Shown here one piece after another: positions 11,515 through 23,559 of a stretch of DNA of 30,080 bases; position 1 is the stretch's first letter, and each line of letters starts with the position of its first letter. Position numbers and translations under genes: made by a program. The notes under the pieces were generated by a model. It had not been told where the DNA came from. It ran no database searches and worked only from the letters and a program-made list of their open reading frames with translations. The stretch is from a virus: positions 1 to 30,080 of the IMG/VR virus record IMGVR_UViG_3300025112_000113; one strand, given 5' to 3'.

Positions 11515-13433
11515 TGGGAATCCTAGGCATAGGTAGCAACGTACTCACTACCTTCAGGTCTGACAGTAAACAGCAAAGGGCAGACGTTAAAAAACTCTCT
11601 GGCGTAGAAAAGAAACGCCATAACGCGTTGGTGATGGGAATCGAAAGAGAAAACGCCCGAATGGACAAGCAAATTGCCATGCTTGGAAAAATCGGGATTG
11701 CCGCAGCGGCTGTGGGTTCTGCTTATATGGCCCTTAAGGCATCTTACGAAAAATACGCGGAACGTCAACAAATGCTGGCAGCCGGTGCAGGCAGCAACCT
11801 CCAAGCTATGCGTGATGTTACGCAAGGATTGGTAAGCGATACTCAACTCCTATCAATGGAAGCCGCGTTATTGAACGGTGCCATTAGACCGACGAGTGCG
11901 GAGATTGTTCGGATTACCGGGTTCATGATGGCTCTAAGGAAAGAGGGCAACGACTTCAACGAAGTCCAGAAAAAAATGACTCAGGCTTTTGTGGAGTTAA
12001 ATTCCAGAAAGCTGGTTAAGTTCGGTGTCCAAATTGACGCCGTGACTGGCGAAGTCGAATCATTTACTAAGATGCTGGCGATGGCCGACAAACATATCGC
12101 AATGATGGGTGGCGATATGACCATCGCCGGCGACACAATGAGGAAGGACCTGACCAGTTTAGAAACTGCAACCAGTGACCTTTCCATTGAACTAGGAAAA
12201 CTTGCTTCGGATGTTCTGCCTCCGCTGATTAAACTTTTCACGGCATTGGCAGAGGCCATCAACTCCGTATCCGATGCCATAGGCAAAGTATGGGAAGCAC
12301 CGGGATGGCTAGGCAAGGCAATGAGTCTTGGCGCTACGCCTGGTGCGGGAAGTACTACTGGAAAATTACACTCCGACTCAGCAATAGAGCAGGCACGATA
12401 CAGGGCCGGTGCACACAGGGCGTTCTTTGGTGAGTGGTATGTAAAAGACGAGGAGACCGGAGGGTCTAAGGTTGATTGGCTTGCGATGACTCGCGAAAGT
12501 GAATGGAGCAGTAGAGAAGCAATCAACAAGGCATTTCAAGAATACTTAGATGAACACATGACAATGCGGCCCGGTCTCCCGGAGAGGGGACCACTCGAAG
12601 AAGTGATTGACAAGGGTAAGGGCAAGGGCAAGGGCAAGGGTAAGGGTAAAAGGACCAGAATGCCTTGGCTTCCAAAGCGCAAGGGCATGGTAGACGAAAC
12701 GGCGTTTGACCCCAACACATGGAATAGACTCCTGGACCAGATGAATGCACAGTACCAACAGCAACGCGCCGATGAGGAAATGATTGGCATGCCTTGGCTT
12801 GAATTGCCGAAAGAGATTTTCGCTAAACAGGACATCGACCTTGAACCAGAGAGGAAAACCGCTGATGAATTGGTTGCGGAATACCAGGAGGCGCAAGACA
12901 AGATGGCAAAAGCCGCGATGCCTGGAGCTTTTGATTTGCAGACCCTTGCCATCGATAGATTAAAGGATGCCTTCGAGGGAATGACGGCCGCCTTTGGTTC
13001 TGCGGTTGGAGCGTGGATAGATGGAAGTCAATCCTTTGGGGCGGCGTTTGAACAGGCAGCGGCTCAGGCACTAAAGGCGATAGCGATACAGGAGTCCATC
13101 GAGGCAATGAGGCATGCGGCTTATGCCGTTGGTTACGCATTCACTCCTGGAATGCAGGGGTATGCTGCCGGACATGCAGTGGCTGCCGCAAAACATGGAG
13201 CGGTCGCAGTGGCTGCCGGTGTTGCTGCTAGGTTAGTTGGTGGGACTCCTTCCGCTGCTCCGAACACTGCGGCAGGAGCGGGCATGTTGAGGGGTGGGAG
13301 GGAATCCCGTTCTCAGACCATTATATTGGGAGCCGACTTTGAAACCGATTCGGCAAGGAGACGTTCTCATAGGATGGCTTCCATACTTAGACAAGCGGAC
13401 ACGGGTGGTTCTACAGTAGTGGAGTTTTCGTAA
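11514..13433 (+). CDS. tail tape measure protein
   Basis: A 639-residue protein that sets tail length and later leaves the tail at DNA entry. It is highly helical with heptad-like stretches at the N-terminus (residues 15-60), hydrophobic helices at about 58-75 (IGIAAAAVGSAYMALKA) and again in an Ala/Gly-rich C-terminal zone (about 540-600) that could insert in the membrane. In the middle is a striking Lys-Gly repeat (about residues 367-379), coded by six tandem AAGGGY hexamers, which looks like a flexible linker. This is short for a tape measure, predicting a tail of roughly 95-100 nm by the usual 0.15 nm per residue rule. It follows the chaperones, the standard order. Confidence 0.88.
   Translation: MGILGIGSNVLTTFRSDSKQQRADVKKLSGVEKKRHNALVMGIERENARMDKQIAMLGKIGIAAAAVGSAYMALKASYEKYAERQQMLAAGAGSNLQAMRDVTQGLVSDTQLLSMEAALLNGAIRPTSAEIVRITGFMMALRKEGNDFNEVQKKMTQAFVELNSRKLVKFGVQIDAVTGEVESFTKMLAMADKHIAMMGGDMTIAGDTMRKDLTSLETATSDLSIELGKLASDVLPPLIKLFTALAEAINSVSDAIGKVWEAPGWLGKAMSLGATPGAGSTTGKLHSDSAIEQARYRAGAHRAFFGEWYVKDEETGGSKVDWLAMTRESEWSSREAINKAFQEYLDEHMTMRPGLPERGPLEEVIDKGKGKGKGKGKGKRTRMPWLPKRKGMVDETAFDPNTWNRLLDQMNAQYQQQRADEEMIGMPWLELPKEIFAKQDIDLEPERKTADELVAEYQEAQDKMAKAAMPGAFDLQTLAIDRLKDAFEGMTAAFGSAVGAWIDGSQSFGAAFEQAAAQALKAIAIQESIEAMRHAAYAVGYAFTPGMQGYAAGHAVAAAKHGAVAVAAGVAARLVGGTPSAAPNTAAGAGMLRGGRESRSQTIILGADFETDSARRRSHRMASILRQADTGGSTVVEFS
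12612..12647 (+). repeat. AAGGGY hexamer tandem repeat
   Basis: Six consecutive copies of AAGGGT/AAGGGC encode a Lys-Gly repeat inside the tape measure. Such in-frame hexamers can gain or lose units by slippage and so change the length of the linker, and with it, in principle, tail length. The T/C variation at the third base of the Gly codon shows that the copies are not all recent. Confidence 0.85.
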
Positions 13434-14233
13434 TGGCAATAAGAAACGGAAAGCTGGAAAGATTGATTGAAATCCCTACTGGTGATTGGACTTTCCAGCT
13501 AAACGAGGGTGGCGGTGCCGTAACTGGGACGGTTGTCGCAGGTGCCAAGTATTTTCTGTCCTCAGGATACGGCGGAGGTAATGCGTTTTTAACAGACATG
13601 GACACCGTGCTGGATGGGCTTGGTGGCGATTACACCATATCATTTGGAGCAGGCGAAAACGGAACGGGGAAAGTTACTATCGCCCGCACGGATGGAGGGC
13701 CTGCAAACTTTGCTATAACGTGGGTGTCCACCGAACTACGTGACTTGTTAGGGTTTACACAAGGAAATCTAAGTGGCTCGGCATCATACACGGGGGACTC
13801 TCAGGCTAAATCCTTATGGTTGCCAGATGCCCCGATGAATAGTTTATTTGGTGCGGCGGATAAAGGGTTTTATGAAACGGACGCGTTGGCAACCGAATCC
13901 CCATCTGGGGCGGTTAAGGCATTCTTTGGAAACAAAAAGCAGGTTAACCAATTGTCATGGACCGGGATATCCCACGCGAAATGCAGGGCAAGCGCAGAGG
14001 ACACCACCAATGAATCCTTTGAACAGTTTTGGCTTGACTCCATATTAGGAGAGCAGTCATGGGCGGCAGGACCATGCGGACCAATTCGGGTCTATTGGGA
14101 TGCTGGCGACGATACAGCCTATGGAGATTATAAAGTGGTCGGTGAAGCGATGCGCGGGTTTAATCCGAGTATGGTGCAGGACGGGTGGCTTGGTCTCTGG
14201 CAAATTGAATTGGATCGAATGGTTGTTGTATAA
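13433..14233 (+). CDS. probable distal tail protein
   Basis: A 266-residue beta-rich protein directly after the tape measure, the usual place of the distal tail protein that forms the ring between tube and tip. Gly-rich strands at the start (TGDWTFQLNEGGGAVTG) are followed by a region containing SWTGISHAKCRASAEDTTNE and ending in a strand QIELDRMVVV. It shares a general phrase pattern with the major tail protein (KRTKCQASFDFT versus SHAKCRASAEDT, each followed by a Phe-x-x-Phe/Leu-W stretch), suggesting that they are related tube-fold proteins. TAATG overlaps at both ends. The call is mostly by order. Confidence 0.6.
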   Translation: MAIRNGKLERLIEIPTGDWTFQLNEGGGAVTGTVVAGAKYFLSSGYGGGNAFLTDMDTVLDGLGGDYTISFGAGENGTGKVTIARTDGGPANFAITWVSTELRDLLGFTQGNLSGSASYTGDSQAKSLWLPDAPMNSLFGAADKGFYETDALATESPSGAVKAFFGNKKQVNQLSWTGISHAKCRASAEDTTNESFEQFWLDSILGEQSWAAGPCGPIRVYWDAGDDTAYGDYKVVGEAMRGFNPSMVQDGWLGLWQIELDRMVVV

Positions 14234-17200
14234 TGGGAACAACCTTAACATCGCTCCAGAATGATGATGGAATACGCGTATGCTTCGTGGTTGCCGTAGA
14301 GGGCTATAGCTACCTTTTAACGGATTACCACACGCCATCGGATCTTTTTACTTCCAGCACTGGATGGCACGGGACTGACTGGTCCAGTGCTCTCGGAGGG
14401 TTGTCTCTGGAAGGAGTTGTGTTTGAGCAGAAAATAACTCCTTGGGATAATAAGATAATCGGAAACGAAATTTCTTTTTCCGTGATGGATTACGACGGAG
14501 CGGACCAGTTTGGGATTGACGTTTTCAAGGTTGGAGGTGGGAACGAAAGCCCATTGGCTGCTTCCATGTCCATATCTCAAACCACAAGCATTAAGGTCAA
14601 GGACGTTACCAACTTTGCAAGTTCTGGAGCCGCATATATAGGGACGGAGCGGATAGACTATGCGAGCAAGGACGCAGGCACCAACGAATTAAAAACCCTC
14701 ACTCGTGGGAAGTTCTCTCCGTTTAAAAGAGATTCAGGCGCGAATATAGGCAGGTCCCATAAACTGAATCTAAAAATGGGAACGGTACCGGCACCAACAA
14801 AGGTAACGGATGCCCCCCGCGTATGGATTGGAAAGTGGTGCGGGATTTGGATGCACCGAGTTATCGGCGGAGTTATCGATACAAAGGCAAACGCGGAACT
14901 TATTCACGCTGGAAAAATAAACGGGATACAGGATTCAACTAACGGAAACACGGTTGTTAGTGTTGGAAGTATACTTGATGTGGTTTCTGGTCAGACCATG
15001 TTGCACGACCAGTATGTCGGTAGAGTGAAAAAAGGAATCTATATCGGCACCGATTTTTGGCTTAGGTACGAAAGCCAGTTGACCGCACCGTCATCTGGTC
15101 CCAACAGTATTAAAAACCAATTGTTCAATGCCACCACTTCCGACTTAACAGAAGGTAACTGGTACACCATAGACGAGTTCGTGGATATTTTTAATAATTG
15201 GTTGCAGGACCATATAGTCGCTGGAACTATGAATGAAGGCGTCAACGCCCATATAACTACTAGGTGGGGAGGGAATAAGTTTAATATAAACTTGGAGGAA
15301 TACCCTGGTACTTGGACGCTACACCGGCACTGGTTAAAGGGTCCTCGCCATTATATAGAGATGCTAGGTTTCAACCCTGAGGGTAACGGTCTCCCTTCGG
15401 AAACTGTTTATGCCAATGCAATGGCTCCTCATGGAATGGAGGTAGAGCCGGACAATTTCAGGTCTCCTCTGGATCCAATTACAATTCGCGCCTTCCAAGG
15501 TGCAACGAATGGCACTCTGGAGCTTGAATTCGCAGATGGCACCTATGTTGACAACACCGACGACATGCCAGATTTTTTGACTTACAACTTGGACGGTTTT
15601 ACTGGAACTGGATGGGGGGTTCTCCAAATAAAAAAATCCCTTGTTATGGCAAAGAAAACCAGCAACACCACATTTAATCCAGTCAGGACAATCCCGGAAC
15701 TAAGTAAGATAGCGGGGGAAAAATTCGGTGCCTATGCAAATTTCCTTGATTCGGGAGGGTTTGGGGATGTTCGGTATGGAGAGGGTGACGAATTAAATGT
15801 AAAACAAGTTGTTATGCTTGAGGGGAAATTAAAAAACCTGATGGCTAAGATGCTGGCAACAACGGACGTTGATGCTCATAACGAGGCAGATATGGACATG
15901 GGGACCGTTTGGGGTTCTCACATGGGAGCAGCCATACCCTATTCTTTAATGGACACACCGTTTGAAGATTCGGTTTCAGGTTTTGATTTGGCTGGAAACC
16001 AAATCATCGTTGTTATTGATGAGCCAACCACATTCGAGGATTTGTTCCTAGCGGATATTACACTTCGTGGTGCCTACTTTATTTTTCGTAAGGGGACCAT
16101 AAGGCTAATAGCACCACAAACGCCAGTTGTATCATTGAAAACGCATGACCTAACGGAAGCCAACAAAGCAGCACCAACCGGAGAGGTTGATCCTAATAGG
16201 ACTCCAACGCAGGTCACGAATGAGTTTTTAAGGAATGTTTTCAAGCTACACTACAAAAGGGATTTAACACAGGACGGAAAATATTTAGAAAAGAAAACCT
16301 TCCAATTCCAATCATCGATTGACGACTATGGAGAGGCAAAGGCGATAACGATTAAGGCAAGGAATAGTTACGCTGGGCCTTCGTTCGGTGATGCAACAGA
16401 GCAATTGGCAATAAATGTTGTGGCAGTTATGCTACCGACTTGGGGCAAGCCAATGCGGAGACTGAGGAGAACCGTGGACATGTCTCTCTATCTGGACATG
16501 GCTCCTGGAGATATAGCGTTGGTAACGGACACCTTTGCTAGAAATCCAGACGATGGGACGAGAGGAATAACGTCAAAGCCTGCCCTTATTCTCGGACATA
16601 GTTTTTCCGTAACTTCTGGAATGATGGGGGAAGTGGACCTCCTGATTGGCGCCATAGACGACACGGTGGCTTATGCGCCTACGGCAAAGATAGACGATGC
16701 GCAAGCCAACTCTGGATATACTTCCGGCACTCCATCGATAACAGTGGACGCCCATGAGTTTTCTTTGGACGCCGAACCCGCGGATGCGTCCCACTTTGAA
16801 GTTGACGACCTTATAAGGATTGAGGAGATAAGCCCGTCCAATCCAGCCAGTACAACAGCATGGGAAAGAACAGTAGCCGGTGTTTCTGGAAATATTATAA
16901 CCTTGAATACCACATTGAGTTCACCGGCATGGGACACCGCGAAGGAATACAATGTTTACTCCCAGGATTATGCGTCGGCGGTAGCAACACAGAAAGCGGA
17001 TTGTTATCAAGCCGACGATGGAGACCATAGAGTGGTCGATACTCGCAACCCTTACACCTACGGGATATTCAATGAAGGGGACACCCTTACTGGCCCTCTA
17101 GCCAGCACGTTGCCAGAGAAACACGCCAACTCCTGGTTTGGTGATGGGAACCCCTTAACGGTTGTAGCCCATAGCAATTTGGCGAAGATGGTAAATAATC

Positions 17201-17673
17201 TAGTCGGGTACAAGTGCGCCACAAAGGGAACGGAGATGATCCCCACTGGAACTGCTATCACCGGACCAACTGCGGCAACATACAAGGTTTATCAAGTGTT
17301 CCCTGTTTATCTAGGTGTTGGTCCACATTCATCGGAGGGTGGCAGGCTTATAAGGATTTCTCCTTTCATGAAAGCATCGGGCGCGTCTGGTGTTTCCATG
17401 AGGGTTACAATATCAAAGATTCCTCCGCACGTTGACCCTGACGTGGCGGCTCCTGCGACAACCGATACGGCATTCGAGTTACCTTTTTCTCAGGCAGAGT
17501 TTACAACCTCTTCCACGAGTTACGCGGAAATTACCGCACAGACCGTTCCCGCAATCTATAACACTGGTGATGGAATTGCCTATATCACTATAGAACTAAA
17601 AGGGTCCGGGTCCCATGCAACGATATACTGGGGGCTTAGTAGATTTGAAGTGCTCCCACCCGGAGGAGAATAA
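14233..17673 (+). CDS. tail tip / receptor-binding region protein
   Basis: The largest gene, 1146 residues. It follows the distal tail gene, where siphophages carry the tail-tip (J- or Tal-like) protein. Sequence is beta-rich with many Thr, Gly and Asp and few Cys. A part around residues 120-160 (SIKVKDVTNFASSGAAYIGTERIDY) and another around 840-890 resemble repeated Ig-like or fibronectin-like units often found on tips. The region around 530-600 and 640-700 looks like the gp27-like hub fold but I cannot prove it. It probably opens the tail at adsorption and contacts the cell surface. No peptidase motif was seen. Confidence 0.65.
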   Translation: MGTTLTSLQNDDGIRVCFVVAVEGYSYLLTDYHTPSDLFTSSTGWHGTDWSSALGGLSLEGVVFEQKITPWDNKIIGNEISFSVMDYDGADQFGIDVFKVGGGNESPLAASMSISQTTSIKVKDVTNFASSGAAYIGTERIDYASKDAGTNELKTLTRGKFSPFKRDSGANIGRSHKLNLKMGTVPAPTKVTDAPRVWIGKWCGIWMHRVIGGVIDTKANAELIHAGKINGIQDSTNGNTVVSVGSILDVVSGQTMLHDQYVGRVKKGIYIGTDFWLRYESQLTAPSSGPNSIKNQLFNATTSDLTEGNWYTIDEFVDIFNNWLQDHIVAGTMNEGVNAHITTRWGGNKFNINLEEYPGTWTLHRHWLKGPRHYIEMLGFNPEGNGLPSETVYANAMAPHGMEVEPDNFRSPLDPITIRAFQGATNGTLELEFADGTYVDNTDDMPDFLTYNLDGFTGTGWGVLQIKKSLVMAKKTSNTTFNPVRTIPELSKIAGEKFGAYANFLDSGGFGDVRYGEGDELNVKQVVMLEGKLKNLMAKMLATTDVDAHNEADMDMGTVWGSHMGAAIPYSLMDTPFEDSVSGFDLAGNQIIVVIDEPTTFEDLFLADITLRGAYFIFRKGTIRLIAPQTPVVSLKTHDLTEANKAAPTGEVDPNRTPTQVTNEFLRNVFKLHYKRDLTQDGKYLEKKTFQFQSSIDDYGEAKAITIKARNSYAGPSFGDATEQLAINVVAVMLPTWGKPMRRLRRTVDMSLYLDMAPGDIALVTDTFARNPDDGTRGITSKPALILGHSFSVTSGMMGEVDLLIGAIDDTVAYAPTAKIDDAQANSGYTSGTPSITVDAHEFSLDAEPADASHFEVDDLIRIEEISPSNPASTTAWERTVAGVSGNIITLNTTLSSPAWDTAKEYNVYSQDYASAVATQKADCYQADDGDHRVVDTRNPYTYGIFNEGDTLTGPLASTLPEKHANSWFGDGNPLTVVAHSNLAKMVNNLVGYKCATKGTEMIPTGTAITGPTAATYKVYQVFPVYLGVGPHSSEGGRLIRISPFMKASGASGVSMRVTISKIPPHVDPDVAAPATTDTAFELPFSQAEFTTSSTSYAEITAQTVPAIYNTGDGIAYITIELKGSGSHATIYWGLSRFEVLPPGGE

Positions 17674-20147: not shown

Positions 20148-20192
20148 ATTGTTTAGGCTAGTATAGTACAAGTGCCAAACAATGGAGATAAC

Positions 20193-20690
20193 ATGGAGCC
20201 GAATGCAGCGGAATGGGTAGATATTGAGGACCTGGTTCCTTGGACAGAGAATCCGAGGGACAATGACCACGCAGTGGATGAAGTTGCCAAGAGCCTTGAA
20301 CGATTTGGCTGGGGTGCCGTTATCATCGCTCGCCGTGAGAATGGGAGGGTTATTGCTGGGCATACAAGGCTTAAGGCAGCAATCAAACTTGGGCATGAGA
20401 AGGTTCCTGTTAGGTTTGTGGACATCACGGAACATGAATCGAGGGCATTGGCTTTAGCGGATAATCGATTGGGTGAACTTGCCAACTGGTCACAGGATCT
20501 ATCCAAAATCCTATCGGAATTAGATAAGGACGAGGTGAACTTGGACGGACTGGGTTGGTCCCTTGTTGAGTTGGAAAAGCTCATGGTGGAGAATGAACCG
20601 GCAGCCCAATTTGAGGAATTCAATGAGGACATAGGAACGGACCATAGATGCCCAAAGTGTAACTATGAGTGGTCTGGAGCCTCCTCATGA
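20193..20690 (+). CDS. ParB/sulfiredoxin-like domain protein with C-terminal CxxC
   Basis: A 165-residue protein with the ParB/Srx fold: NPR near residue 22, the phosphate-binding AGHTRLKAA (about 69-77) and LADNRLGELA (about 94-103). Members bind DNA, use CTP or cut DNA, and phage versions often sit beside DNA methyltransferases. The C-terminus ends with CPKCNYEW, half of a zinc ribbon, so it may bind metal as a dimer or with a partner. ATG 20193 has GGAG six bases before it; a GTG at 20172 is the longer option. It opens the operon and its stop overlaps the chorismate mutase start (ATGA). It may guide or regulate DNA modification, which is inference. Confidence 0.8.
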   Translation: MEPNAAEWVDIEDLVPWTENPRDNDHAVDEVAKSLERFGWGAVIIARRENGRVIAGHTRLKAAIKLGHEKVPVRFVDITEHESRALALADNRLGELANWSQDLSKILSELDKDEVNLDGLGWSLVELEKLMVENEPAAQFEEFNEDIGTDHRCPKCNYEWSGASS

Positions 20691-20989
20691 TTGCCAACAA
20701 CCCAAGAGTCCCTAGAATTGCCAAGGACTTTTTCAGAAAAGAGGTCGAGGACCTTCGTAAGATGATAAGCAGGCAGGATGACGAAATATCCATGGCCCTT
20801 CTTCGGAGATCCAAGCTTGTTCATAAAATGCAGAAACTGAAACAGGATTTCCAAGTGGACATGCGGGACCCATCCAGAGAGGAAGAGGTCTTAAAAAGGG
20901 TGGATGCTGGATTATACGGCGAAGAGGTAGCCCGTAAGATTTGGACAGTTCTTTTCGAGCATTCTAGGTTTGATGAACCAGAGGGATAA
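20687..20989 (+). CDS. chorismate mutase (AroQ, type II), stand-alone
   Basis: A 100-residue all-helical enzyme that converts chorismate to prephenate. The E. coli P-protein mutase active-site residues line up: Arg24 (Ec Arg11), Arg41 (Arg28), Lys52 (Lys39), Asp61 (Asp48), Arg64 and Glu65 (Arg51, Glu52) in RDPSREEEVL, and Ser93 (Ser84). Spacings match except for a four-residue shorter loop before the last helix. Ec Gln88 is Glu97 here; yeast mutase has Glu at this place too, with a more acidic pH optimum. ATG 20687 overlaps the previous stop, with GGAG at 20675. A phage seldom needs Phe/Tyr synthesis, so the reason is probably prephenate for the CmoA-like enzyme three genes on. Confidence 0.87.
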   Translation: MIANNPRVPRIAKDFFRKEVEDLRKMISRQDDEISMALLRRSKLVHKMQKLKQDFQVDMRDPSREEEVLKRVDAGLYGEEVARKIWTVLFEHSRFDEPEG

Positions 20990-22020
20990 TGGAGAAACCT
21001 CCATATAGAATTCCAGACATGAAGGAAATAGCGGCGATCCCATGGAATGGGATAAACGTGGTTTCCACGTTTTCGGGATGCGGTGGATCGTGCTTGGGAT
21101 ACAGGATTGCGGGATGCAAGGTTGTATGGGCCTCTGAATTTGTTCCAGCCGCGGCAGAGGTTTATAAATTGAATCACCCAAATTCCCATTTGGACACTAG
21201 GGACATCAGGGAAGTAGAGTCTTCCGATATTTTACGGGATGCAGGTATCCCAAAAGGTTCTGTGGATATTTTAGACGGAAGTCCTCCGTGCTCTTCCTTT
21301 AGCTTGGCGTCCGCAGGAAAGAGAACAAAGGATTGGGGAAAAGTAAAAAAGTATAGCGACACCAAACAGAGGACGGATGACCTTTTTTTCGAGTACACCC
21401 GAATCCTTGACGGGTTGCAACCCCGTGCGTTCGTAGCCGAAAACGTTCCTGCCCTTATAAGAGGAAAAGCCAAAGGATATTTTAAGCAGATAATTGGAGA
21501 GTTGAAAGATTGCGGTTACAAGGTTTCCGCAGCGATTATAAATGCTGGAAGACTAGGAGTTCCACAGGCTCGCCAAAGATTGATTTTTGTAGGGTTTAGG
21601 AATGATTTGGGGTTGAGCCCAGTTTTTCCACGTCCCGATAGCTGGGGTTATACGATAGGAGAATCCTTGAAGGGCCTTGATACCTCTGTCCAGTGCATTC
21701 GGTTTACCGGAAGAGGATGGGGAGTCGGCGCTCCTATTTATACGCCAAGTTTCCAGTCACCAACCGTTACCACTATGGGATTTTTTAGCGATGTTTACAA
21801 AGTGGATCGTCCAAGTTCCATTAACTGCTTTTCGGAAAATCAGAAAAACTCCGATAGGCTAACCATACATGAATTAAAAAGGCTCTGTTCCTTTCCAGAT
21901 GATTTTGAGCTTTCCGGTTCATATGAGCAGAGATGGGAAAGGCTTGGGCGCGCCGTACCTCCAATGATGATGAGTCGGATAGCCTCAACCATTGCGGAGA
22001 AATTAAATGCCAAGCGATGA
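20989..22020 (+). CDS. cytosine-C5 DNA methyltransferase family, predicted carboxymethyltransferase
   Basis: A 343-residue C5-cytosine methyltransferase. Motif I is STFSGCGG (26-33), motif IV GSPPCSSFS with nucleophile Cys101, motif VI ENV (151-153), motif VIII QARQR (193-197), motif IX RLTIHELKRLCSFPDDF (290-306) and motif X LGRAVPP (319-325). The target-recognition region (about 205-285) is short. The oddity is Arg321: the family has a nearly invariant Asn (GN[AS]V) there, close to the methyl donor. A Lys at the equivalent place of an engineered CpG methyltransferase has been reported to allow carboxy-SAM use. With a CmoA-like gene in the same operon, I infer transfer of a carboxymethyl group to cytosine. 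The target site is unknown. TAATG overlap upstream, 14-base overlap downstream. Confidence 0.88.
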   Translation: MEKPPYRIPDMKEIAAIPWNGINVVSTFSGCGGSCLGYRIAGCKVVWASEFVPAAAEVYKLNHPNSHLDTRDIREVESSDILRDAGIPKGSVDILDGSPPCSSFSLASAGKRTKDWGKVKKYSDTKQRTDDLFFEYTRILDGLQPRAFVAENVPALIRGKAKGYFKQIIGELKDCGYKVSAAIINAGRLGVPQARQRLIFVGFRNDLGLSPVFPRPDSWGYTIGESLKGLDTSVQCIRFTGRGWGVGAPIYTPSFQSPTVTTMGFFSDVYKVDRPSSINCFSENQKNSDRLTIHELKRLCSFPDDFELSGSYEQRWERLGRAVPPMMMSRIASTIAEKLNAKR

Positions 22021-22855
22021 CCATCTAACGGAAGGAATAAGGAGAGTCCTTATCGAGGAAGTGGAGAAGATAGATGGAAGGATTGCCGTTCTTCTATCTG
22101 GTGGAGTTGATTCCCATACACTGCTTGGTGCAGCAATAGCAGCAAAAAAAAATCCTCTTTGCCTTACATTTGCCTTAGAGGGTGTCAACTCAATGGACCA
22201 AAGGGAGGCAAGGAGGACCGCAAAGGCCTGTGGTCTGGAGTGCCGGGTTACCATCCTTCCTCGATCCATAGATATTTTACAAGAGGACGTTTCGGAATTA
22301 GTAAAGGTGTTTGGTCTTAGGAAAAAATCCGACATTGAATGCTCATGGCCCATAGTTAGGACAATTAGAGAATTGGAACCAGGGTTTACCGTACTCATTG
22401 GGTACAATGCGGAGAGATACTTTGGTCTTGGTAGAAAGAGGGAGATAACCTACAGGGACCAAGTTGACCCCGAACCAATAAATCTTTGCAGGAGAGAATT
22501 ATTCCTAAAGGGTTCCCCTCAAATAAGATGCGTTAGGAAAGTTGCCGCATCTAAGGAATGCCAAATAAGCGTTCCATACAGGGACCGATCTCCGGACCTG
22601 CTGGACCTATTTAACGGATTCAACTTCAAGGACATGAATTCCCCCAAACAGAAAAAACATGCGCGCCTTGCATTCAAGAAGGAAATCCCAAGAATTGTAA
22701 ACCTACTCCCACATACAAACCTTCAGCTTGGTGACTCAGGTATAGCCAAACATTTCCGTTCGTTAATAGATACGAATTGGAACGTTGGAGGGTGGAGGTC
22801 ACCAGTTGGAATTTATAACGCATTGGCAAACAACAGGATAGGAGTGGAGCAATGA
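22007..22855 (+). CDS. asparagine-synthetase-like ATP-dependent amide synthetase (no glutaminase domain)
   Basis: A 282-residue PP-loop enzyme matching the C-terminal synthetase domain of AsnB: LLSGGVDSHTLL at 29-40 (pyrophosphate loop SGGVDS 31-36), FALEGVNSMDQREARRTA (55-72) as the AsnB-type second strand, VLIGYNAERYFGLG (129-142) in place of the AsnB SGEGADE.FGG segment, and ISVPYRDRSPDLLDLF (187-202) for VPFLDH. The family adenylates a carboxylate and attaches an amine. The N-terminal Cys-type glutaminase is missing, so it must use free ammonia or another donor. In this operon the likely carboxylate is carboxymethylcytosine in DNA, giving the amide. This substrate is inference. A small-molecule substrate is possible. 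It overlaps both neighbours (ATGA at 22852). Confidence 0.8.
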   Translation: MPSDDHLTEGIRRVLIEEVEKIDGRIAVLLSGGVDSHTLLGAAIAAKKNPLCLTFALEGVNSMDQREARRTAKACGLECRVTILPRSIDILQEDVSELVKVFGLRKKSDIECSWPIVRTIRELEPGFTVLIGYNAERYFGLGRKREITYRDQVDPEPINLCRRELFLKGSPQIRCVRKVAASKECQISVPYRDRSPDLLDLFNGFNFKDMNSPKQKKHARLAFKKEIPRIVNLLPHTNLQLGDSGIAKHFRSLIDTNWNVGGWRSPVGIYNALANNRIGVEQ

Positions 22856-23559
22856 ACCAAGACATGGTTATCCCTGATGGAAAATGGGAATTCAATGATG
22901 AGGTCACAAAGGTTTTCGACGACATGTTAAAACGCTCCATTCCTCAATACGAGGTAATGAGGGAAGCAGTTACGGATTTGGCCCAACAGTATGCGGTACC
23001 ACAAACCGATATAGTTGACCTTGGGTGTTCCAGAGGAGAAGGAATTTCCAGACTGATAGATTACCTTCCATTCAACACCTTTGTTGGCGTTGAGATTTCC
23101 GAGCCAATGAGGAAATCCTGTATAGATAGGTTTTCCGATAGATTGCCTGCCAGTAAGGTAAGAATCCTTAATCTGGACCTTCGCCATCGGTACCCGGCGT
23201 GTTCCGCATCCGTTACGTTGGCGGTCCTAACTATACAATTCACGCCAATCGAATACAGGCAGCAAATCCTAAAAAACATTTATGACCATACGGAGAAGGG
23301 CGGAGCCCTTATTGTGGTTGAGAAGGTTTTAGGCGGATGCAATGAAATAAACGAATTGCTGGTGGACCAATACTATTCAATGAAAAACAGGAACGGATAC
23401 ACCCATGACCAGATAGACCGGAAAAGGCTATCTCTCGAAGGTGTATTGGTTCCTGTTACCGCCAAATGGAACGAGGAAATGTTGCAGTCGGCGGGGTTTA
23501 GTCGGGTGGAATGTTTTTGGAGGTGGATGAACTTCGCTGGTTGGGTTGCCTTAAAGTGA
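22852..23559 (+). CDS. cmoA-like: CmoA-like carboxy-S-adenosylmethionine synthase
   Basis: A 235-residue class I SAM enzyme that closely follows E. coli CmoA along its length: GKWEFNDEVTKVFDDMLKRSIPQY (split by me at residues 10-33), SAM-binding DLGCSRG (56-62), FVGVEISEPM (77-86), TIQFTPIEYRQQIL (127-140), EKGGALIVVEK (148-158), NGYTHDQIDRKR (181-192) and WRWMNFAGWVALK at the end. Arg192 aligns with CmoA Arg199, a residue reported to hold the carboxylate. CmoA makes carboxy-SAM and phenylpyruvate from SAM and prephenate. In bacteria its partner CmoB modifies tRNA wobble uridine; no CmoB is present here, and the likely user is the DNA methyltransferase. Last gene of the operon; it converges with and overlaps by nine bases a minus-strand gene. 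Confidence 0.9.
   Translation: MNQDMVIPDGKWEFNDEVTKVFDDMLKRSIPQYEVMREAVTDLAQQYAVPQTDIVDLGCSRGEGISRLIDYLPFNTFVGVEISEPMRKSCIDRFSDRLPASKVRILNLDLRHRYPACSASVTLAVLTIQFTPIEYRQQILKNIYDHTEKGGALIVVEKVLGGCNEINELLVDQYYSMKNRNGYTHDQIDRKRLSLEGVLVPVTAKWNEEMLQSAGFSRVECFWRWMNFAGWVALK

Follow-up and report, generated by a model that had tools for sequence, protein, structure and literature searches.

The best-characterised relative of the system considered here is that of the Synechococcus phage S-B43, in which CmoA converts prephenate and S-adenosylmethionine (SAM) to carboxy-SAM, CmoX uses carboxy-SAM to make 5-carboxymethylcytosine (5cxmC) in DNA and CmoY makes the glycine amide of this base, 5gcxmC (Yang et al. 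2025, Nat Commun, PMC12783734). The same study reported the crystal structure of CmoX (8YF3) and 5,615 candidate CmoX sequences, noted an association with ParB and found that 5cxmC blocks the restriction enzyme HhaI. Prephenate availability was named there as a matter for further work; the word ‘chorismate’ does not occur in the paper and no mutase is mentioned. Here we describe a related operon in the virus record IMGVR_UViG_3300025112_000113, a linear, possibly incomplete sequence of 30,080 bases analysed over its whole length (the window), in which a gene for a chorismate mutase (CM) is packed together with homologues of CmoX, CmoY and CmoA. The system is of a known kind, and what appears to be new is the predicted supply of prephenate by a virus-borne CM.

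We consider it probable that the operon serves to hypermodify phage DNA and brings along a supply of the precursor. In this scheme, the free-standing, unregulated CM would convert host chorismate to prephenate, which the CmoA homologue would combine with SAM to give carboxy-SAM; from this the CmoX homologue would carboxymethylate phage DNA at cytosine C5, and the CmoY homologue would activate the carboxylate with ATP and join an amine to it (glycine in one characterised relative). DNA modified in this way would withstand host restriction. The predicted core carboxymethylation chemistry is well supported, being already published for the homologous phage set; CM activity, the role of CM as prephenate supplier, the identity of the amine and protection from restriction are what we infer in addition.

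The window contains phage head, lysis, recombination and replication genes. The original prediction, made from the sequence of the window, described four genes on the + strand at 20687-23559, encoding CM, a C5-cytosine DNA methyltransferase (MTase), an AsnB-like protein and a CmoA-like protein, and open reading frame and Pfam analysis confirms all four. It overlooked a fifth, a ParB-like gene that comes first and shares the cassette in nearly all relatives. The genes are tightly packed, with ATGA overlaps at the ParB/CM and AsnB-like/CmoA junctions, a TAATG at CM/MTase and a 14-nt overlap at MTase/AsnB-like; an in-frame GTG lies upstream of the CM ATG, at 20669. Amongst the operon proteins there are Pfam matches to CM_2 (42.1 bits, cut-off 27), DNA_methylase (182 bits) and Methyltransf_25, together with matches to PHROG 4752 (‘tRNA methyltransferase’, E 4e-72) and PHROG 26038 (E 1e-39). 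A second contig (27,439 bases, 12,457 of them compared) contains the same stretch at 99.9% identity. A promoter scan of the window gave no signal above shuffled sequences, and no CmoB gene was found within its 30,080 bases, as the original prediction had also noted. The order of the genes recurs in unrelated phages and prophages more than expected by chance.

With the S-B43 system the window shares a carboxy-SAM synthase, a C5-MTase with an SPPC motif and a carboxylate-binding arginine, an AsnB-like ligase lacking a glutaminase domain and the association with ParB. The two differ in sequence (28-35% identity), in gene order (ParB-CM-CmoX-CmoY-CmoA in the window, CmoA-CmoY-CmoX in S-B43) and in the presence of CM, the annotation of the S-B43 cluster and of the 5 kb around it showing none. 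The mutase itself has the CM_2 fold and catalytic residues of the AroQ class (bacterial AroQ, PheA, TyrA and DAHP synthase-linked enzymes), from which it differs in being phage-borne, about 100 amino acids long and stand-alone, with no fused PheA or TyrA, ACT or other regulatory domain. When an AlphaFold2 model (pLDDT 83.8) is compared with PDB folds, the top 15 hits are all chorismate mutase entries, among them E. coli 1ecm and CM complexes from mycobacteria; the E-values are weak, the protein being short and helical.

Ten CM relatives were examined and all ten score above the Pfam cut-off. The catalytic residues R24, R41, K52, D61, R64 and E65 are present in the window protein; R24, R41, R64 and E65, together with D31, are invariant across an alignment of CMs 20-33% identical to the window protein, D61 is nearly so and K52 is kept by all except two phage proteins (L031 and L314). 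By manual alignment we take R24, D31, R41, R64 and E65 to correspond to R11, D18, R28, R51 and E52 of the E. coli enzyme, D61 to D48 and K52 to K39; a Ser then occupies the E. coli S84 position and a Glu that of Q88. Judged by this alignment, the columns that stay conserved among divergent CMs are the catalytic ones. The median dN/dS among prophage copies is 0.19, and purifying selection acts on CM in Verrucomicrobia prophages.

Used as a single-protein query against viral contigs and annotated phages, the window CM retrieved only a near-identical contig or nothing, and relatives were instead traced through CmoX and CmoA neighbourhoods and Pfam. They occur within CmoX cassettes on four phage contigs (L031, L258, L290 and L314) and in a family of Verrucomicrobia prophages, one of which (L198) is clearly a prophage, with terminase, portal and DNA polymerase genes. 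For comparison, C5-MTases were surveyed at 285 loci (196 clusters at 90% identity) from viral contigs and bacterial and archaeal genomes; the loci were picked by similarity to CmoA or CmoX, genes can be missed at contig ends and the sample covers about 240 CmoX loci out of several hundred to thousands. CM is found in five CmoX lineages (11 clusters), always beside the cassette. The five places that CM occupies in the CmoX tree do not form a single clade (p-AU 0.0001); one gain followed by several losses, or transfer of the cassette, may be an alternative to independent acquisition. The order ParB-CM-CmoX-(CmoY)-CmoA is found in the window, L290, L258, L314 and the Verrucomicrobia loci. Four lineages carry CM in the ParB-CM-CmoX slot, and the fifth has CmoA-DAHP synthase-CM.

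Family searches of whole contigs found CM in CmoA/CmoX viral contigs solely adjoining the cassette, and in none of 77 viral contigs chosen by arbitrary 15- and 16-base words, a small control. The four Verrucomicrobia genomes G082-G085 gave 23 CM matches. All 17 free-standing CMs among these sit in ParB-CM-CmoX cassettes, 15 with CmoA and two in decayed copies, whilst the remaining six matches lie in long frames, five of which could be read as fusions: three CM-TyrA, one CM-PheA and one CM-TyrA-like frame that is seemingly interrupted. NCBIfam likewise identifies L332 as CM-TyrA and L333, from a further Verrucomicrobia genome, as CM-PheA. It is because the host CMs inspected are fused to prephenate-consuming enzymes that a phage CM would matter. 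The cassettes are present in up to seven copies per Verrucomicrobia genome, in related prophages, some of them decayed (L186-L203, L422, L423).

Several observations weigh against the proposal of a self-supplied modification cassette. The verrucomicrobial CMs stop at the position of E. coli Ser84 and do not reach that of Gln88, making their activity uncertain, and the L314 protein has no equivalent of Asp48. CM accompanies only 11 of the 151 clusters of MTases that have the arginine described below, so that it is optional, most sampled CmoX/CmoA phages being without it; on counts alone its enrichment (11/151 against 0/41 clusters of plain Asn/Met enzymes) is not significant. The window CmoA reaches 160.3 bits against the TIGR00740 tRNA-CmoA equivalog, below the cut-off of 193.3. 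The case for CM rests not on counts but on its position beside the cassette, the restriction of free-standing copies to cassettes within genomes and its occurrence in independent lineages.

Could CM have some function other than supplying prephenate? It might associate with CmoX or CmoA without being catalytic, or might drain chorismate from tryptophan, folate and quinone synthesis, and both the loss of the C-terminal active-site portion (S84/Q88) from the verrucomicrobial copies and the lack of CM in most CmoX phages fit such a role. We consider this unlikely, however, as it is the catalytic columns that stay conserved, CM is always beside CmoX/CmoA, T4-like phages place a CM next to a U32 protein and one lineage adds DAHP synthase, the first enzyme of the shikimate pathway, which a binding partner would not need and which a drain on chorismate does not explain. 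The comparative genomics and the retained catalytic residues support the inclusion of CM in the operon by the original prediction, and the best reading of the sequences is that CM is an optional, deregulated prephenate-supply module.

The lineage with DAHP synthase is that of L031, in which the genes lie in the order CmoX-UDG-like-CmoA-DAHP synthase-CM. The DAHP synthase gene (L031:8703-9542) is directly downstream of the phage CmoA gene and its product scores 401 bits against NF006421 (cut-off 335), the match beginning at position 80 of the profile, such that the N-terminal regulatory part is missing. A DAHP synthase fragment is also present at a contig end upstream of ParB-CmoX (L011:3-326). 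The uracil-DNA-glycosylase (UDG)-like gene between CmoX and CmoA (L031:7424-7984) is seen in L003, L057 and L270 as well.

Stand-alone CM genes are also present in annotated T4-like phages of Klebsiella, Enterobacter and Edwardsiella. In the two records opened, Klebsiella PWKp16 and Enterobacter Entb_45, a U32-family gene, CM and a thymidylate synthase homologue form one operon. The U32 proteins TrhP and RlhA are needed for prephenate-dependent pyrimidine hydroxylation of E. coli RNA, and a PheA variant with CM activity only brought back prephenate-dependent tRNA hydroxylation in that organism (PMC6599085). We regard this as a direct precedent, in which free CM activity limits a nucleic-acid modification that requires prephenate. 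Like the window, the T4-like operon has a small stand-alone CM, in its case next to a U32-family protein; unlike the window, it would be expected to serve hydroxylation-type chemistry, not carboxymethylation, and its CM (in PWKp16 and Entb_45) is without equivalents of R51 and D48. On balance, we favour the view that phages repeatedly took up a small unregulated CM, once along with DAHP synthase, as a dedicated source of prephenate for modifying nucleic acids, by carboxy-SAM-based DNA carboxymethylation in the window and the prophages and by U32-type hydroxylation of pyrimidines in T4-like phages. Two sets of candidates were set aside: the CM of MT835512 is a PheA fusion on an unannotated human-faeces record, and the SA/LM ‘phage’ records in which CM or DAHP synthase occurs are probably bacterial contamination.

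Taken with its relatives and the lineage that adds DAHP synthase, the operon suggests that some phages carry their own prephenate enzyme or enzymes, bypassing the fused CMs of the host, and gives viral chorismate mutases a testable metabolic role. In a rumen virome survey, DNMT1, asparagine synthase and chorismate mutase of viruses are listed one by one as metabolic genes, and the chorismate mutases are read as aromatic amino-acid genes (PMC10465536). If our proposal is correct, the CM, asparagine synthase and DNMT genes of virome surveys would partly be pieces of DNA-modification pathways, and some of those in the rumen survey may belong to cassettes of this type.

The AsnB-like protein was originally predicted to amidate the carboxymethyl group to 5-carbamoylmethylcytosine. 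The protein matches Asn_synthase at 21.5 bits (cut-off 21), which is weak alone, has an SGGVDS loop and an ATP-pyrophosphatase fold and is 31% identical to SpCmoY over 231 amino acids. Its AlphaFold2 model (pLDDT 92.5) has beta-lactam synthetase and asparagine synthetase as top PDB matches and superposes on AsnB over its synthetase half (TMq about 0.72, TMt about 0.44). Asparagine synthetase homology would be consistent with formation of the primary amide using ammonia, as would the glutaminase-bearing CmoY cluster of other phages, which may take glutamine-derived ammonia (PMC12783734). Nevertheless, the 282 residues include no glutaminase domain, the model covering only the synthetase half of AsnB, and the nearest characterised relative, SpCmoY, ligates glycine. 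For these reasons the simple amide finds no support and is a doubtful product; ligation of glycine or another amine seems likelier from the protein sequence.

The best PDB sequence match of the MTase is SpCmoX (8yf3, E 1.5e-62; 35% identity overall). The SPPC motif (S98-P99-P100-C101, with catalytic Cys101) is invariant across the MTase alignment, and Arg321 aligns with SpCmoX Arg350, the residue that replaces the Asn of motif X. This arginine holds the carboxymethyl group in SpCmoX, the wild-type form of which took only carboxy-SAM (PMC12783734). In the survey, 145 Arg clusters have CmoA in the locus and six do not, whereas none of the Asn/Met clusters has CmoA and 41 are without it (Fisher p 9e-36); AsnB-like/CmoY homologues are near 56 of the 151 Arg clusters and none of the 41 Asn/Met clusters. 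Since the window MTase has the diagnostic Arg, a residue that goes together with CmoA, we read this enzyme as a carboxymethyltransferase; the evidence that Arg-type enzymes, this one included, use carboxy-SAM is strong, if indirect. The pairing of a carboxy-SAM-using C5-MTase with a CmoA-like enzyme, central to the original prediction, is supported by the sequences and by the published chemistry of the homologous CmoA and CmoX. That the MTase is an ordinary SAM-using 5-methylcytosine enzyme, the CmoA homologue working on the wobble uridine of host tRNA, is suggested by the naming of CmoA after tRNA modification and by matches of the MTase to generic C5-MTase families but is very improbable given the Arg in place of Asn, the carboxy-SAM specificity of SpCmoX, the perfect split between Asn/Met enzymes without CmoA and Arg enzymes almost all with it, the lack of CmoB in the window and the confinement of CmoY homologues to Arg enzymes.

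The window CmoA matches 1im8 and 4gek in the PDB, and its Arg192 aligns with Arg199 of E. coli CmoA, which binds the carboxylate (PMC3663124). As in the bacterial CmoA/CmoB pathway to cmo5U34 in tRNA, prephenate and SAM would give carboxy-SAM, the Arg199 equivalent being retained; the window differs in having no CmoB, in the predicted acceptor (DNA cytosine) and in a CmoA that falls under the tRNA equivalog cut-off and is, by sequence, of the phage type. The S-B43 CmoA, an active carboxy-SAM synthase despite its divergence (PMC12783734), is more distant, at 28% identity to the window CmoA.

Table 1. Coordinates of the cassette genes and of related loci
Feature	Position	Strand	Basis
ParB-like DNA-binding protein, 172 aa, GTG start, first cassette gene	20172..20690	+	Pfam and PHROG
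Free-standing AroQ-type chorismate mutase (CM), 100 aa, ATG start, predicted prephenate maker	20687..20989	+	Pfam CM_2, AlphaFold2 model, catalytic residues
Predicted C5-cytosine DNA carboxymethyltransferase, CmoX homologue, 343 aa	20989..22020	+	8yf3 match, Cys101, Arg321
CmoY homologue, 282 aa, predicted ATP-dependent ligase of AsnB-synthetase type, no glutaminase domain	22007..22855	+	SpCmoY identity, AlphaFold2 model
Predicted carboxy-SAM synthase, CmoA homologue, 235 aa	22852..23559	+	PDB matches 1im8 and 4gek, Arg192
U32-CM-thymidylate synthase homologue operons	L093:4829-6923, L095:4814-6917
Second CmoA-linked module	L013, L014, L015, L017, L035, L037, L041, L067, L082, L084, L085, L087, L088, L090, L091

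ParB was considered as a marker of carboxymethylation and rejected: it is near 135 of the 151 CmoX(Arg) clusters and also near 38 of the 41 plain Asn/Met clusters, thus accompanying plain C5-MTases equally.

The original prediction had counted regular occurrence of CmoA-like genes without the DNA methyltransferase as evidence against itself, and this was found in part: 37 CmoA loci have no CmoX, some of them stopping at contig ends and 15 carrying another MTase-like fusion. Such loci are a separate module, different from the window operon. This second phage module comprises a ParB + methyltransferase-like fusion of roughly 500 amino acids (PHROG 5475), a small HAD-like protein (PHROG 32036) and CmoA; the fusion is possibly a carboxymethyltransferase of another type. 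A further CmoA cluster without CmoX (L010:8934-9992 and 12336-13763) encodes two proteins that look radical-SAM-like by their cysteine motifs and one FtsJ-like methyltransferase. Elsewhere in the window, a 1146-aa protein of the tail region (14233-17673) and several of its long neighbours are without a match in PHROGs.

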